Assembly (NCBI GenBank): GCA_026003335.1
Contig: BPHB01000001.1
Coordinates: forward strand, 1,758,591 to 1,822,590
Direction: 5' to 3'
From: Chitinophagales bacterium
GTDB lineage: Bacteria > Bacteroidota > Bacteroidia > Chitinophagales > CAIOSU01
Length of the DNA: 64,000 nucleotides
Shown in pieces: positions 6,339 to 39,848 of this stretch. Positions within the stretch are counted from its first letter, which is position 1, and each line of letters starts with the position of its first letter. The notes beneath the pieces are model-generated. The model was given only the letters and a program-made list of their open reading frames with translations, was not told the DNA's origin and ran no database searches. Position numbers and translations under genes: made by a program.

Positions 6339-8118
6339 TACCGTGGTGTTTGCGCTATTGATTGTCCTGCTGCCGCGGGGCAGCAATGCGCAATGGAGCG
6401 ATACCGTTCAGCTGCCACTTATTATGCCTACCTCCTACTCAGTTTATCTCAGCGAAACGGGCAACGACTCTGGCCCGGGCGACAGCCTGCTGCCGGTTGC
6501 AACTTTCTCCACGGCCCTGAACAGAATAGACTCGCTGAGCTCCGGGCAAAACGGTGATGTATATGCTGAAGTGGTAATTTATCCCGGAACCTACCGCTTT
6601 GCACTCCTGCAACGTGTGAATCAATTTCAAATCGGACCGAAGAAGCTCCACGTAAGCGTACGTGGTATTGGGAATGTAATTCTGGACGGAACCGGACTTT
6701 CTCTGACAGGAGGAGAGGGCATGGTAAGACTTATGGGTAACCACATCTATGTTAAAAACATACACATTCTTTATAGCCCTTCCGATGGTATTCGGTTTGG
6801 ATTTGACTACATGGGCACTGTGATTAACCCGCATGATATTCTGATAGAAAACGTTGAAGTATCACAAACCGCCGGGCATGGTATTTTATGCGGCATCGGA
6901 CCTTTAAACACGGCCAACCCGCTGGCAATTACTCCCTTTGCGGAAAGATTTCTGGTAAAAAACTGCTACGTCCACCATACTGTAAACTTTAATCAGCCCC
7001 AACCACAGTGGGGGTCGGCCATTAAACTGCACAATGTTCGGCATGGCACAGTTACCGGCTGCCTCGTACACGACAATGCAGGGGAGGGTATTGATATAGA
7101 TTTTGGTGAATACATCGCTATTTCGGGAAATACGCTGTTTGATAATTATGCCAATATCTATGTGGACAAGGGAGAATATATTGCCATACGCAACAATTTC
7201 ATCTACACAACTCATCGCAGAAAAGTAGGCATCCTGCTTGGTATTGAACCCTTTTCAAGCCTGATGACCAATCACTATGTGCGGCATGTTTTTATTGCCA
7301 ATAATATCATCCTGAATACCCCAATGGCTATTTCCATCTGGCAGGGCTCTTACTCCGGTCTGCAAAACGGATACTTTTCAGATATTCAAATTCTGCACAA
7401 CACCCTTATCGGTAAATCTTCCAGTACCGGTGGACTTATCGGATTTTCCTATGTCACCTCTCTCGGGCAACCTGCTCCTAATGTTTTTTTCTCAAATCTG
7501 GTAATAAAAAACAATATCCTCAGCGGGCATCCTGACAGCATTCAGAACAATAACCTGATAGATGCTCCCCTGAATCCGCAGCCCGCACTTACCACCGAAT
7601 ATAATCTCTGGAACATTCTTCCCGCCTCAGGCTTTGACAGTACTAATAGCGTAAATTCCCTTTTACCATCCTTTGCTGATCCGCTAAAAATTGAGTCGTT
7701 AGTGCCGCATGCCGACAGCAATACTGCCTTTGTTTTTGCAGTGCCCCGCGTGGATTTTGTGGACGATGATTTTAACCATACCGCACGCTTCCCTGCTTAT
7801 ACCAATGCCGGAGCATTGGAACTGGATACAACCACTTCATCCCTTTCCACCGTAACGCTGAACGATAGGAACGTGCACTACGCATTACAAGCTTTTCCAA
7901 ACCCATTTACAGACTATACCACCATTCCTCTTTCTGATTTACCGACACAGGAGGTGCAGGTTCAGCTTTATGACATCAATGGAAGAAACATGGCTATATC
8001 GCTGCAGCGTCAGCAACACGCAGTTGTTATGCATCGCGGCAACCTGCAACGTGGCATGTATATTTATTGCATCACTACTCCAAAAACCATATCGTGCAAA
8101 AAGCTGATAGTGCAATAG
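6304..8118 (+). CDS. Secreted right-handed beta-helix protein with type IX (type A) sorting domain
   Basis: A 604-residue protein predicted to be exported. The ATG at 6304 gives a good signal peptide: basic n-region (HRKSN), hydrophobic VVFALLIVLL, and cleavage near SNA-Q. The body (about 40-480) has repeated short strands such as HIYVKNIHILYS, DILIENVEVSQT, FLVKNCYVHHT and YIAISGNTLFDN. This is the pattern of right-handed parallel beta-helix (pectate-lyase-like) proteins that often act on or bind polysaccharide. The last 80 residues (ALQAFPNPFTDYTTIPL ... LYDINGR ... GMYIYCI ... KKLIVQ) match the type A C-terminal sorting domain of the type IX secretion system. The start overlaps the upstream gene by 35 bp. 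Enzyme activity and substrate are unknown. Confidence 0.85.
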   Translation: MIFLHRKSNFSNTVVFALLIVLLPRGSNAQWSDTVQLPLIMPTSYSVYLSETGNDSGPGDSLLPVATFSTALNRIDSLSSGQNGDVYAEVVIYPGTYRFALLQRVNQFQIGPKKLHVSVRGIGNVILDGTGLSLTGGEGMVRLMGNHIYVKNIHILYSPSDGIRFGFDYMGTVINPHDILIENVEVSQTAGHGILCGIGPLNTANPLAITPFAERFLVKNCYVHHTVNFNQPQPQWGSAIKLHNVRHGTVTGCLVHDNAGEGIDIDFGEYIAISGNTLFDNYANIYVDKGEYIAIRNNFIYTTHRRKVGILLGIEPFSSLMTNHYVRHVFIANNIILNTPMAISIWQGSYSGLQNGYFSDIQILHNTLIGKSSSTGGLIGFSYVTSLGQPAPNVFFSNLVIKNNILSGHPDSIQNNNLIDAPLNPQPALTTEYNLWNILPASGFDSTNSVNSLLPSFADPLKIESLVPHADSNTAFVFAVPRVDFVDDDFNHTARFPAYTNAGALELDTTTSSLSTVTLNDRNVHYALQAFPNPFTDYTTIPLSDLPTQEVQVQLYDINGRNMAISLQRQQHAVVMHRGNLQRGMYIYCITTPKTISCKKLIVQ

Positions 8119-8317
8119 TATCTTTCTAAAAAAGCCGTCTATGCAGCGTCAATTTTACTTTACTTTAAAAAGGAAATCTGTTTAAGAATTAAGTGGCCAG
8201 GCGGATGCTTAAAAGAGGTTTTGTTTTTCCTTTGTGTAACGGTTCTCCGGCACGCAGGATAAGTTTTCCTATAATTTTAGGAACAGGAAACAGAATAACC
8301 TTATCGTGGCTGGAACC

Positions 8318-10338
<2,021 letters not shown>

Positions 10339-32532: not shown

Positions 32533-33318
32533 TTATTTTATTTCTGTCACTTCTTCATATAAGACCGGCAGCTTATCTTGCCTCATTCTGAATTTTGTTC
32601 CATGATTATGACCTGTCCGCGCGTCAAAGTCCACTAGAATGTAATTTTTTTCTATAGCTTCTACAAACTTCTCAATGGACAACTTTTTAAGCATCAAAAT
32701 TTTGTTATAATGGTAGTATTCTTCTCCCTCTATTCGCTTCACTTGTGCTTGTACATAAAAACAGTTGTGTAGCTTGGTTCCGGCTTTATGTAACAAGTCA
32801 TCAAAACCCCAATAAGGTTGAGGATCAAGTTCTCCCAGTCCTATTCTTTCTTTAACTGTTTTTAGCCAATTTGCATGTCTCTCCGCTACGGCTGAAGCAT
32901 CAAATGAAATCAATACCTTTTTTTGTTTTCTGTCAACGATTACCATAAATCCTCTATCGCTTCTATTTCGACCGCCTATTGTTTGTCTGAAACTCATTTC
33001 ATTGTCAGGATATTTTGAGCCAGCTTCTTGATGAGTCCAACCATATCTAAGTAGAAAAATTTGAGGTACGAATTTTAATGCTCTTGGAGATGGCTCCATG
33101 TGAAACAATGTAGTGAGGGAAGATGTGTTTTCTCTTTGACATTTTAATTCCCATTCTGCGGCATTTGGAATTGGTAAATTGTTTTCTTCTATGCCAAGCA
33201 AATCTTCAAGCGTATTCCCAATACCACCAGAATTTCCTGGGCGTGCATTTTTAACCCAACCCATTGCTCTTATCTTTTTTAACTCGTTAATGAGTTGTTC
33301 TTTTGTGTATATTTTCAT
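32533..33318 (-). CDS. MvaI/BcnI-family type II restriction endonuclease
   Basis: A 261-residue protein matching the MvaI/BcnI family. The N-terminus (KIYTKEQLINELKKIRAMGW) leads into GGIGNTLEDLLGIEENN (about 31-47) and NAAEWELKCQR (about 52-62), which has the E-x-K end of a PD-(D/E)xK site. HMEPSPRALKFVPQIFLLRYGW and NEMSFRQTIGGRNRSDRGFMV follow. Characterised members cut short CC(W/S)GG sites, MvaI as a monomer; the target here is inferred only. The gene is AT-rich compared with its neighbours. It starts 2 bp after the methyltransferase stop, so the two are co-transcribed. Confidence 0.85.
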   Translation of the reverse strand: MKIYTKEQLINELKKIRAMGWVKNARPGNSGGIGNTLEDLLGIEENNLPIPNAAEWELKCQRENTSSLTTLFHMEPSPRALKFVPQIFLLRYGWTHQEAGSKYPDNEMSFRQTIGGRNRSDRGFMVIVDRKQKKVLISFDASAVAERHANWLKTVKERIGLGELDPQPYWGFDDLLHKAGTKLHNCFYVQAQVKRIEGEEYYHYNKILMLKKLSIEKFVEAIEKNYILVDFDARTGHNHGTKFRMRQDKLPVLYEEVTEIK

Positions 33319-33320
33319 TC

Positions 33321-34274
33321 TTATTTCTTCTTTATCGGGGGCTTCCAGAAATCCAAAAGATACTCAAATGTTGTCCCCATTGTTATATAGTTGCTTGGCC
33401 ATCCAAAAATTCCAATATTGTTAACAATATTTCTTCTGTCCCAAATAATAATATTACGTAATTCATAACCTCTTTTTCTTAATTCTTCTACAAGTGCAAT
33501 GTGTAATGTTATTCTTTGGTTTTCCCACCACATGTCCGATACGTTGATAACACAATGTCCTTTTTCTTTGAGTAATGGCAGTAAATCTTCAAAAATGTCT
33601 CCCATTGCCTCTTCCCACTTGTCAATTTCATAAGTGCCTAAATCTCTTTCATCTTGTGAATATTGCTCAACTTTTAAATATTGGTCATTTTTCCTATCTC
33701 GCCTTGATTTGTTTTTTCTTTTTCTGTTAAGCAAGTTAGCATAAGGGGGTGAAGTCCATATTAAACTTATAGTTTCTTTGTCCAAGTATTCTTTAATATT
33801 TCTTGCATCGTCTTGAATTGCTAACTGCTTAGAATTGTTAAACATATTCTGATTAGTTAGTCGAGAACTGCAGAGCTTGATATAGTTAGGGTTTAGGTCA
33901 AAACCTACTGCATTTCTATTTGTGTCTTGTGCTGCCACAAGAGTTGTCCCACTTCCGACAAATGGGTCAAGCACAATCTCTCCCTCATGAGTGAATAATT
34001 CAATGACTTTCCGTGCTAATGAAATTGGAAATGTTGCAGGATGGAGATTTTTATCTCGGATGTCTCTATTTTCATAAAAGAACTCCCAAACTCCTAATTG
34101 TGATTTTAACCAGTCCTTAGCAGTCATACAGTTGATATGTGTCGGGCCACAATCACACGTCTTTTTGTAATTAAGTCCAAGTTTTTTGTTTTCTTTCTTA
34201 GCATTTTTTGTGTCTTTTTCTACTGTGATTTCTTTCATTTTTTTAATATTATATAATTGTTCAAAGGTCGTCAT
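33321..34274 (-). CDS. DNA (N4-cytosine or N6-adenine) methyltransferase of the restriction-modification unit
   Basis: A 317-residue amino-methyltransferase. The AdoMet motif DPFVGSGTTLVAA (about 103-115) is preceded by HPATFPISLARKVIELF (motif X region). The catalytic motif TSPPYAN lies later at about 174-180. TSPPY is typical of N4-cytosine enzymes, which fits an MvaI/BcnI partner. Many related enzymes have TSPPY before the AdoMet motif, so the order here is permuted. Three Cys occur near the N-terminus (CDCGPTHINC). ATG 34274 is chosen; an upstream ATG at 34325 would overlap the divergent gene. It modifies host DNA to protect it from the paired endonuclease. Confidence 0.87.
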   Translation of the reverse strand: MTTFEQLYNIKKMKEITVEKDTKNAKKENKKLGLNYKKTCDCGPTHINCMTAKDWLKSQLGVWEFFYENRDIRDKNLHPATFPISLARKVIELFTHEGEIVLDPFVGSGTTLVAAQDTNRNAVGFDLNPNYIKLCSSRLTNQNMFNNSKQLAIQDDARNIKEYLDKETISLIWTSPPYANLLNRKRKNKSRRDRKNDQYLKVEQYSQDERDLGTYEIDKWEEAMGDIFEDLLPLLKEKGHCVINVSDMWWENQRITLHIALVEELRKRGYELRNIIIWDRRNIVNNIGIFGWPSNYITMGTTFEYLLDFWKPPIKKK

Positions 34275-34292
34275 TTTATTTGTTTTCTTTTT

Positions 34293-34314
34293 AAGGGGCG
34301 AAATTAAACACAAC
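34293..34314 (-). repeat. Right imperfect inverted repeat bounding the restriction-modification unit
   Basis: This 22-nt sequence starts AAGGGGCG and ends ACACAAC directly against the ATG of the fumarylacetoacetase-family gene at 34315. It is the inverted partner of 32505-32527. On the minus strand its outer end reads GTTGTGT, six of seven positions of the GTTRRRY core consensus. Confidence 0.6.
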
Positions 34315-34926
34315 ATGAAAGTCATTTGTGTCGGAAGAAATTATGCCGAGCATGCCCGGGAACTGAAGAATGCTGTTCCCGATGAACCGGTCATCTTCAT
34401 GAAACCTTCTACTGCCCTCATCCGCAACAACAAAGTGCTTTTTTATCCGCAATTTACCCGGCAGCTTCATTATGAAGGGGAACTGGTACTTAAAATCTGT
34501 AAAAACGGAAAAAGCATTGAGGAGCGGTTTGCCCATCGCTATTTTGATGAAATCACCGTAGGCATTGACTTTACAGCACGCGATATTCAGGCACAGAGCA
34601 AAACAAAGGGGTTGCCCTGGGAAACTGCCAAAGCATTTGATGGCTCCGCAGCAGTAGGCAACTTTGTACCTTTGCATCAGCTACCCGATCTTAATAACAT
34701 TCACTTTTCCTTGCTGCAAAACGGCAAAGAGGTACAAAAAGGCACCTCAGCAGATATGCTTTTTAGCTTTACACAGCTGCTTAGCTACATCTCCCGTTAC
34801 TTTACTTTACTGAAAGGCGACCTTCTTTTTACCGGAACACCTGCCGGAGTGGGCGAAGCGCACATACATGACACGTTTGAAGGCTATCTGGAAGGAACAA
34901 AGGTTTTGACCTGCAAAGTGAAATAG
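34315..34926 (+). CDS. Fumarylacetoacetate hydrolase-family protein
   Basis: A 203-residue FAH-fold protein. It begins KVICVGRNYAEHARELKN, shows the metal-binding Glu pair in LHYEGELVLKI (near 53-55), VGIDFTARDIQ and KAFDGSAAVG, and ends with the conserved LLFTGTPAGVG. Known members include acylpyruvases, oxaloacetate tautomerases and 2-hydroxyhepta-2,4-diene-1,7-dioate isomerases; the short single-domain form is most like acylpyruvase or oxaloacetate-tautomerase-type proteins. ATG 34315 is chosen because conserved sequence begins there. Its upstream DNA coincides with the edge of the restriction-modification unit, so its native promoter may have been displaced. Confidence 0.9.
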   Translation: MKVICVGRNYAEHARELKNAVPDEPVIFMKPSTALIRNNKVLFYPQFTRQLHYEGELVLKICKNGKSIEERFAHRYFDEITVGIDFTARDIQAQSKTKGLPWETAKAFDGSAAVGNFVPLHQLPDLNNIHFSLLQNGKEVQKGTSADMLFSFTQLLSYISRYFTLLKGDLLFTGTPAGVGEAHIHDTFEGYLEGTKVLTCKVK

Positions 34927-37944: not shown

Positions 37945-37975
37945 TTTGCAGTCTAATGGCACTCGTGTAACTTTG
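37945..37975 (+). promoter_or_regulatory. Strong Bacteroidota-type promoter of the small Cys-protein cluster
   Basis: TTTG (37945-37948) and TAACTTTG (37968-37975) match the -33 and -7 consensuses exactly with 19-nt spacing. The ATG at 37986 lies 10 bp after the -7 element, so the leader would be only a few nucleotides, and no Shine-Dalgarno sequence is present. Confidence 0.75.
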
Positions 37976-37985
37976 GTGCCGATCC

Positions 37986-38357
37986 ATGAAAAGCGCAGTT
38001 TCCATATTCCTGCTGGCGATAATAAATTGGCAAATATGTCTGAAAGGAGGAATCATAGGCTACTATGTTCTTAATCAGAACTACATTGCCACCACGCTGT
38101 GTGAAAACCGCCTGAAGCCAGAGTTACACTGTAACGGAAAATGCTATCTGAAAAAGCAGCTCAAAAAGTCTGATGCCGCAGAAGAAAACAACCGGCAGCT
38201 TCCGCTTTCATTGAAAAACATGCATGATTTGCAGCCCTTCATTGAACCCACCCCTATCCGGTTCTCACTGTTTTCAGTATCTGAGGTAATGTTTAAGGCT
38301 TTTGCGTTTGCCAAAGAACTTTCATACACCCCGAACATCTTTCATCCTCCGGCATAA
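37986..38357 (+). CDS. Small membrane-anchored Cys-motif protein of unknown function
   Basis: A 123-residue protein. The N-terminus is hydrophobic (VSIFLLAIINWQICL) and could be a signal anchor. NQNYIATTLCENRLKPELHCNGKCYLKKQLKK follows in segments (about 31-62), giving three closely spaced cysteines, two of them as HCNGKC. I recall similar small proteins in Bacteroidota near metal-related and TonB loci, but the role is unknown. The Cys/His pattern suggests metal or thiol chemistry at the cell envelope. It is the first gene behind a strong promoter and is followed by an outer-membrane-like barrel and a DUF4625 lipoprotein. Confidence 0.75.
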   Translation: MKSAVSIFLLAIINWQICLKGGIIGYYVLNQNYIATTLCENRLKPELHCNGKCYLKKQLKKSDAAEENNRQLPLSLKNMHDLQPFIEPTPIRFSLFSVSEVMFKAFAFAKELSYTPNIFHPPA

Positions 38358-38414
38358 CTGCAGCCTGCATCCTGCCGAATTGAGCTTTATTTTTTCACTG
38401 TAAAATTTTTTGTT

Positions 38415-39314
38415 ATGCGTCTGCTAGCAGTAGTGCTGGTCTTGCTGGGGACGTGGGTAAATGCAGCTTATGCCTGCTCCTGCGGTGCAGCCAGTGGAGG
38501 CGGAAATTTCCCTGGCATAATACCCCAGTTTCACCAAAACACGATAGGTCTGCGGTGGAACCATGCGGGTTCGGATGTAACCATATTGACTGATGGCCGA
38601 AGAATTGCCCGGCATGATTACAATAGTGTTGAACTATGGGTACGTTATTATCCGGTCAGGCGGCTTCAGTTGATGCTATCCCTACCCGCTATATTCAACC
38701 GGAAAACAGACCGTGACGTTACCGAAGGTGTTAACGGCATAGGAGATCTTCTGCTGGAGGGAAGATATATGCTTGCCCGAAGTTCAGACAGCTCCTGCTC
38801 TCCCTGGAAGCATGTTCTGCTGGTTGGCGGAGGCATCAAGGTGCCCACCGGACGCCATGACCTTAAAAGCGGAGGAGAGCTGATCAGTCCTGCCTTGCAA
38901 CCCGGCAGCGGAAGTGTTGACTTCACTGTCAACACGACCTATACCATACGGTACCGCCAGCTCGGAATGCAGGCTGATTTTAGCTACAGGGTCAACCTCC
39001 CTAACCGTCTGGACTACCGCTACGGCAATCGGCTGGGAAGCGCTCTACAGTTGTTTTACTGGATACGGGCTGGTCGCATGGCTATTTTGCCGAATGCCGG
39101 TGTATTTGCCGAATACTTTAGAAAAGATCGGCAAAAGGATGTGCTGAAATACAACAGCGGAGGCAGCATGATCTATGCAACCAGCGGAGCAGACCTTTAC
39201 TATGGCAGAATTGCCCTGGGATTTACTTTCCGCCAGCCGGTTTTTCAGAAACAGGCGTACGGAGAAGTACAAAGCAAAGCAAGCTGGCAATTACATGCTT
39301 CTGTTTTCTTTTAA
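38415..39314 (+). CDS. Predicted outer-membrane beta-barrel protein
   Basis: A 299-residue protein with a signal peptide (RLLAVVLVLLGTWVNAAYA) and a mature N-terminus containing CSCGAASGGG. The rest has alternating amphipathic strands with aromatic girdles (VELWVRYYPVRRLQLMLSLP, ADFSYRVNLPNRLDYRYG, WQLHASVFF) and ends in Phe-Phe, as outer-membrane barrels do. IPQFHQNTIGLRW and IKVPTGRHDLK resemble the transporter/MetA-like barrel families of Bacteroidota. The cargo is unknown; the CxCG start may bind metal. It is the second gene of the 38-39.8 kb cluster, 57 bp after the Cys-motif gene. Confidence 0.8.
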   Translation: MRLLAVVLVLLGTWVNAAYACSCGAASGGGNFPGIIPQFHQNTIGLRWNHAGSDVTILTDGRRIARHDYNSVELWVRYYPVRRLQLMLSLPAIFNRKTDRDVTEGVNGIGDLLLEGRYMLARSSDSSCSPWKHVLLVGGGIKVPTGRHDLKSGGELISPALQPGSGSVDFTVNTTYTIRYRQLGMQADFSYRVNLPNRLDYRYGNRLGSALQLFYWIRAGRMAILPNAGVFAEYFRKDRQKDVLKYNSGGSMIYATSGADLYYGRIALGFTFRQPVFQKQAYGEVQSKASWQLHASVFF

Positions 39315-39363
39315 CTGTTTTCTTTTAACTGAGATTTTTTCATTCACACAAAAAAGACAACTC

Positions 39364-39795
39364 ATGAAATACATTAAAATGCTTTTTTCAACTTTACTGA
39401 TGATTTCTATTTTTTGCTTTACCGCGGTGACCTTCACCGGGTGTGATAAAAAGGATGATGACCATCATAGCGGTCCTGACACGCAGGCTCCGGTATTTAA
39501 TATCACATCTCCGACACCTATGCAGGTTTTTAATAATGGAGATACCGTCTTTCTCAGAGGAACACTCACGGATGACAAAAGCCTGCATGATCTGGAAATC
39601 CTGATTAAAAATGCCGATAATGACAGCACCCTCTTTTCATTATCACAGAGTGTGCACGACCTTACCTCCTATAACATTGATTTCTTCTGGAAATCATCGG
39701 TAAGTGACCACACAAATGCGCACGTCATTTTCATGGCTGAAGATCATGGCGGCAATATCGGGAGAGACACCGTGCACATCCACATCATGCCCTGA
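39364..39795 (+). CDS. DUF4625-like lipoprotein
   Basis: A 143-residue lipoprotein. The ATG at 39364 gives a signal peptide ending in the lipobox F-T-G-C (near 27), followed by a charged, His/Asp-rich spacer (DKKDDDHHSGPD). The domain TQAPVFNITSPTPMQVFNNG and DTVFLRGTLTDDKSLHDLEI matches DUF4625, an Ig-like fold common in Bacteroidota, and it ends with HDLT ... FMAEDHGGNIGRDTV. The His/Asp spacer could bind metal. It is the third gene of the cluster and is followed by a strong bidirectional terminator. Confidence 0.82.
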   Translation: MKYIKMLFSTLLMISIFCFTAVTFTGCDKKDDDHHSGPDTQAPVFNITSPTPMQVFNNGDTVFLRGTLTDDKSLHDLEILIKNADNDSTLFSLSQSVHDLTSYNIDFFWKSSVSDHTNAHVIFMAEDHGGNIGRDTVHIHIMP

Positions 39796-39814: not shown

Positions 39815-39848
39815 AAAAAGCATGGGTAATACCCATGCTTTTTTTTTC
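39815..39848. terminator. Bidirectional intrinsic terminator
   Basis: A perfect stem AAAAAGCATGGGT / ACCCATGCTTTTT (39815-39843) has a 3-nt loop, flanked by an A-run on one side and a T-run on the other. It lies between the convergent DUF4625 and DinB genes and can stop transcription from both. Confidence 0.9.

Follow-up and report, generated by a model that had tools for sequence, protein, structure and literature searches.

Three neighboring genes in the window, by which we mean the whole 64,000-nucleotide stretch of Chitinophagales DNA that was analyzed, are on balance probably a copper-handling operon of a type found widely in Bacteroidota, with the first gene, ORF1, as its sensor. The three look unrelated at first sight, and comparison with other genomes supports their membership of a copper-handling gene set that is conserved across Bacteroidota. 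By analogy with leader proteins described elsewhere, ORF1 appears to be a copper-responsive leader that acts while it is being made and controls the barrel and the lipoprotein encoded behind it, a proposal in which we infer the metal binding, the stalling and the regulation. Little is known about how Bacteroidota acquire copper across the outer membrane or regulate this uptake and, if this reading is right, a short leader gene present in more than one-third of the sampled genomes would mark copper operons directly.

The genes lie where an earlier reading, made from the sequence alone, had placed them, co-oriented on the + strand from 37986 to 39795 and separated by gaps of 57 and 49 nt. ORF1 (37986-38357, 123 aa), present in one copy in the window genome, encodes the HCNGKC protein, the likely leader of CruR/CutF-like design; ORF2 (38415-39314, 299 aa) encodes a predicted outer-membrane β-barrel of ∼12 strands; and ORF3 (39364-39795, 143 aa) encodes a lipoprotein with a DUF4625/Ig-like domain and semi-conserved histidines. 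The features that had drawn attention to the cluster, namely HCNGKC (ORF1 residues 48-53), the CSCG at the mature end of ORF2 (residues 21-24) and the His/Asp-rich spacer of ORF3 (DKKDDDHH), are all present, as is the strong terminator described for it, a 13-pair stem followed by a T-run (39815-39843, + strand) that closes the cluster.

The "perfect promoter" that had been proposed at the other end is of the Bacteroidetes type. An exact match to the Bacteroidetes-type consensus, TTTG-N19-TAACTTTG, is found at 37945-37975 (+ strand), 10 nt before the ORF1 ATG, a placement that would leave the transcript a 5′ leader of only a few nucleotides. There is no σ70 consensus at this position, and the pattern is not rare, with four occurrences in the window against 2.5 expected. 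What makes the promoter credible is its position together with the enrichment of a TAnnTTTG box before ORF1 homologues, 81 of 144 of which (56%) have one within 150 nt upstream, compared with 9-19% of other co-directional genes and 30% of divergent genes in four control classes. Overlapping the final codons and the stop of ORF1, a weak 5-pair hairpin followed by a T-rich stretch (38350-38377, + strand) is a possible attenuator element; it is not conserved, and among 63 relatives we found no conserved intrinsic terminator or hairpin between ORF1 and the next gene (20 have a weak one). Elsewhere in the window, two adjoining ORFs on the − strand (32533-34325) resemble, by eye, a restriction endonuclease and a DNA methyltransferase (DPFVGSGTT motif).

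Conserved motifs, spacing and position of ORF1

ORF1 starts with a hydrophobic helix (residues 1-29; 37986-38072, + strand), predicted to be an export signal or anchor and modeled by AlphaFold2 as helix with a pLDDT of >90 over residues 2-29. This is followed by the putative metal-ligand motif C39...C49-N-G-K-C53 (38100-38144, + strand), by a linker of 67 residues (38145-38345, + strand) and, one residue before the end of the protein, by F-H-P-P (38340-38351, + strand), which we propose as a translation-arrest motif. Cys-39, Cys-49, Gly-51, Cys-53, Pro-121 and Pro-122 are invariant in 63/63 ORF1 relatives, the first four also across a 59-sequence alignment, and the three-cysteine pattern common to the relatives is C-x9-C-x-G-x-C. 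Outside the Cys region, a majority residue occurs in the 63 relatives only at Phe-93 and in the I-F-H that precedes the prolines.

The C-terminal motif sets these proteins apart from their neighbors, with Pro-Pro falling within the last ten residues of 146 of the 148 relatives that carry the Cys motif, compared with 13/1,379 other genes. In the first set, where relatives and neighbor labels were in part drawn from shared loci, the counts are 63/63 against 6/717 other genes of those loci; in the second they are 83/85 against 7/662, and the 80 further loci, chosen by N-terminal motifs alone, test the C-terminus more independently. The usual form is F-[HR]-P-P, and the two exceptions carry FHPP slightly further in, where 11 and 22 residues follow it. 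Because the relatives are kin sequences, we also counted them by cluster: the 148 fall into 84 clusters at 50% identity, and the Cys motif and Pro-Pro occur across these 84.

The distance from the last cysteine to Pro-Pro is almost fixed, averaging 66.3 residues (SD 2.5) in the 63 relatives and 67.2 (SD 2.4) in the second set. Over the same family, identity is 26% in the linker versus 54% in the Cys core, and pN/pS is 0.33 versus 0.11, with synonymous sites near saturation. By these measures, the linker is about three times less constrained than the Cys core, its sequence being free and its length not. In the AlphaFold2 model, residues 1-71 form a helix-Cys loop-helix predicted with confidence, and from residue 72 the pLDDT is 60-70. 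ORF1 has no family match in Pfam or NCBIfam, a PDB sequence search returned nothing usable, and the model has no Foldseek match.

ORF1 relatives are present in 108/296 Bacteroidota genomes sampled across the phylum, and a scan of named genomes yielded the 80 further ORF1-type loci, among them Flavobacterium, Pedobacter, Chitinophaga, Dyadobacter and Spirosoma. Downstream there is, without exception, a co-directional gene, the median gap being 108 nt; the relatives lie immediately upstream of the operon genes, often with what looks like a promoter of their own. In some loci (L041, L044, L050, L056 and L057), the ORF1-type gene sits mid-operon with an upstream gap of 3-6 nt. Tandem HCNGKC genes head one operon in L031 (7472-8476), L153 and L210, and in several genomes two or three HCNGKC genes head different operons.

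These observations bear on a different reading of ORF1, as a stable periplasmic copper carrier anchored in the inner membrane, in which the protein would bind the metal through its three cysteines and act as a small chaperone together with the barrel, MbnP or SCO1, and Pro-Pro would serve folding, docking or turnover. A confident fold for residues 1-71 is also what a stable small protein would be expected to have, and the low pN/pS of the Cys core (0.11), which indicates strong purifying selection, and the mid-operon copies fit a carrier as well. However, a terminal Pro-Pro held at near-fixed spacing over a free linker is unexpected for such a protein, as is the constant place before a co-directional gene with a separate promoter, and ORF1 has neither a solved relative nor a fold match; we therefore regard the carrier as unlikely, at perhaps one chance among a few. 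The sequence-only reading had described ORF1 as a small anchored protein with potential metal ligands; a sensing leader explains ORF1 better than an anchored carrier of metal would.

Gene neighborhoods and the case for copper

We collected 40 ORF1 neighborhoods, clustered all of their genes all-against-all and labeled them with Pfam. The recurrent partners are MbnP (identified by PF20243, 180 bits), CCP_MauG di-haem peroxidases of the MbnH type, TonB-dependent receptors, SCO1/SenC, PepSY_TM, YtkA and the ORF2 barrel, relatives of which are found in 12 of the 40. A labeled family, meaning a copper-type gene or TonB receptor or one of the cassette's own families (MbnP, MbnH-like di-haem peroxidase, SCO1, PepSY_TM, TonB receptor, barrel or DUF4625 lipoprotein), lies within three genes downstream of 146/148 ORF1 relatives. 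Metal genes had been suggested as neighbors to look for, and MbnP, MbnH-like MauG, SCO1/SenC, PepSY_TM and TonB receptors are indeed near the relatives; copper, put forward before as a guess, is supported by this context. The window cluster itself contains no MbnP, MbnH, SCO1 or TonB receptor, and its own next genes, the barrel and the lipoprotein, are linked to copper only through their relatives, from which the support for copper at this locus derives.

The three genes are also neighbors elsewhere, a point that the sequence-only reading had proposed to check. ORF2 homologues occur in 27/60 order-level relatives, and in 17 of the 20 order-level ORF2 loci outside the window genome an ORF1 homologue lies beside the barrel or one gene off. 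At least 14 other loci repeat the order HCNGKC-barrel-DUF4625, in most cases with MbnP next: it is seen as in the window in L062, L105, L106 and L111, without MbnP next in L141, and as HCNGKC-barrel-DUF4625-MbnP in L134, L139, L140, L143, L150, L151, L177, L184 and L205. The same three genes with the lipoprotein displaced are found in L110, L113, L120, L122 and L124, and an HCNGKC-TonB receptor-PepSY_TM arrangement in L033, L036, L039, L059, L067 and others. The L150 contig, with its typical Bacteroidota cluster, is labeled Azovibrio restrictus (a betaproteobacterial MAG) and is probably mis-binned.

The MbnP/MbnH pair (PF20243 and a MauG-type di-haem peroxidase; PMC3621798) is joined to the ORF2 cassette in most relatives, MbnH often; both are absent from the window cluster and kept elsewhere in the window genome. 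That genome encodes MbnP and two MbnH-like proteins, all outside the cluster, with an MbnP-MauG-MauG set at G000:C1:∼0.93 Mb that is unlinked to it. A lone MbnP on C3 (L074, G000:C3:121000-137000, gene at 8018-8782) adjoins malate dehydrogenase. In L107, L117 and L121, the HCNGKC-barrel-MbnP cluster lies beside malate dehydrogenase (73-78% identity), and in L117, from a genome of the same family, the whole cluster starts beside it (75% identity). Given that malate dehydrogenase adjoins both the lone MbnP and the relatives' cluster, the cluster has probably been split in the window lineage.

The same architecture could in principle respond to iron, zinc, nickel or haem, or to a redox signal, a version to which we give an outside chance. 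TonB receptors, PepSY_TM and YtkA also accompany other metals, Fe/Mn superoxide dismutase is among the neighbors of ORF1 relatives, and some CutF-like clusters accompany nickel/cobalt genes (PMC9973294), but the recurrent partners here are MbnP, MbnH-like MauG and SCO1, and the putative ligands are cysteines, not histidines only. A chance grouping of three ordinary envelope genes, in which one promoter is shared by accident and the Cys and His residues are meaningless, might be suggested by the lack of a function for ORF1 and ORF2 from Pfam/NCBIfam and by a promoter pattern that, taken by itself, should occur 2.5 times in the window, but we rejected it as highly improbable given that the order is conserved in distant genomes that span many families and genera, and that the Cys and Pro-Pro are invariant.

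The barrel and the lipoprotein

ORF2 has CSCG at its mature N-terminus (AYA|CSCG; 38475-38486), where the family has C-x2-C-G-C, one of the three CxxCGC cysteines being lost in the window copy. Together with the three invariant cysteines of ORF1, this family motif bears out the conservation of Cys/His positions on which the idea of a metal module had been made to depend. The ORF2 model (pLDDT of 88.7) is a barrel of ∼12 strands that matches FapF by Foldseek (E of 4e-11, TM of 0.67), and a profile comparison also matches FapF (E of 5e-7). Its closest PDB structures are FapF and a COG4313 channel (Phenol_MetA_deg fold; 5o65 and 4rl8), and the same barrel type is predicted for ORF2. It differs from these channels in its low identity (14%), in having no match in Pfam or NCBIfam and in its N-terminal CSCG. 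PF13557 does not match the window ORF2 and matches 6/49 relatives at E ≤ 0.1, no amyloid genes are among the recurrent neighbors, and in one barrel of the ORF2 family a heavy-metal-binding domain (PF19335, E of 3.7e-7) is fused to the protein.

ORF3 has the lipobox FTGC with the lipid-bearing Cys-27, followed by DKKDDDHH, an acidic stretch that we take to resemble a Bacteroidota surface-export signal. It matches DUF4625 (PF15418) with 28.6 bits, above the cut-off of 27 (2e-6), and the Ig-like PF17957 at 3.5e-5, and PF15418 is matched by 8/10 cassette lipoproteins at E ≤ 0.1. Histidines common to the ORF3 relatives occur as LH, H-x-H and DH, part of which the window ORF3 keeps.

A proposed nascent-chain copper sensor

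In the mechanism that we propose, ORF1 would be exported with its N terminus leading. If ∼30 residues fill the ribosome tunnel and ∼17 span the membrane (figures used in PMC9973294), the 66-residue spacing would place C-x9-C-x-G-K-C outside the membrane while the ribosome, ∼66 codons further on, reads F-H-P-P before the stop. The presence or absence of copper on the Cys motif would then decide whether the ribosome stalls at FHPP and, through this, the expression of the downstream genes. Because most of these look like acquisition genes (TonB receptor with PepSY_TM, MbnP/MbnH and SCO1), we would expect the logic of CruR, in which the absence of copper leads to a stall and expression, and copper to release and shut-off. 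As for the relay from stalling to the next gene, a conserved terminator or hairpin did not turn up, which leaves Rho or translational coupling as candidates. ORF2 would be an outer-membrane channel with its Cys motif at the periplasmic end and ORF3 a His-bearing lipoprotein, probably surface-exposed, both, as we infer, serving copper capture.

The sequence-only reading had found no assigned function for any of the three genes, which holds for ORF1 and ORF2 as regards family matches but overlooked a close functional parallel in CruR and CutF. Each of the two carries an export signal and a Cys motif, with a Pro-rich motif following 45 residues later at the C terminus, and their genes come first in copper operons, those with MbnPH among them (PMC9426467, PMC9973294). 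CruR of Bordetella pertussis (DUF2946, PF11162) combines an export segment and a Cys motif with a C-terminal RAPP arrest motif at fixed spacing, CruR-type genes being first in operons with TonB receptors, PepSY_TM, SCO and MbnPH (PMC9426467), and ribosome arrest by CruR has been demonstrated in vitro (PMC12992588). The ORF1 family resembles this design, with a small protein encoded first whose hydrophobic N-terminal helix may serve export, a Cys motif, a C-terminal x-P-P near the stop, conserved spacing and a place directly upstream of copper genes, which in the relatives are again TonB receptor, PepSY_TM, SCO or MbnPH genes; the Bordetella operon cruR-crtA-crpH (PMC9426467, PMC12914433, PMC13038864) has the layout of HCNGKC-TonB receptor-PepSY_TM. 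In contrast to CruR, ORF1 has three cysteines (C-x9-C-x-G-K-C) in place of CXXC, F[HR]PP in place of RAPP, a spacing of 66 in place of 45 and, over residues 1-71, a confidently predicted fold, whereas CruR is reported to be poorly structured. CutF of Rhodobacter capsulatus, an exported nascent copper sensor with a CxxxC motif and a Pro-rich C terminus, is encoded upstream of a cuproprotein gene, the start of which is hidden by a stem-loop (PMC9973294); ORF1 is like it in its C terminus and, if the N-terminal helix serves export, in being an exported protein, but we found no conserved counterpart of the stem-loop in the ORF1 family.

Copper leaders of this general kind are already known. In the open-access literature, we found no paper that links the C-x9-C-x-G-K-C/F[HR]PP family, the barrel or DUF4625 to copper; DUF4625 goes unmentioned in the part searched, and CNGKC appears solely in a venom review on another subject. 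Copper leaders were reported to be missing in Bacteroidota by a survey that covered RAPP/RGPP motifs only (PMC12992588). The CutF-like list D of PMC9973294, picked by Pro-Pro near the C terminus and by a downstream gene, has many Bacteroidota proteins and may include the HCNGKC family. More broadly, and with slightly less assurance than we attach to the operon itself, the HCNGKC proteins could form a class of nascent-chain copper sensors that spans the phylum Bacteroidota, with a sensor motif (C-x9-C-x-G-K-C) and an arrest motif (F[HR]PP) of their own, unrelated in sequence to CruR and CutF and controlling TonB copper uptake, MbnP/MbnH and an unrecognized cassette of FapF-like barrel and DUF4625 lipoprotein. 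If so, nascent-chain metal sensing would extend to a second, apparently independent set of motifs, and functions would be suggested for unnamed TonB receptors, for the barrel family and for DUF4625 lipoproteins.

ORF1 does not match PF11162 (DUF2946) by hmmscan at E ≤ 1, and PF11162 is not among the matches listed for 59 ORF1 relatives, results that exclude a distant homology with DUF2946 at the level of hmmscan only. PF11162 does match other Bacteroidota proteins, and DUF2946-like proteins with CxxC and a C-terminal RGPP or RAPP are found in Bacteroidota apart from the HCNGKC family, in L125 (1387-1792) and L131 (1333-1755).
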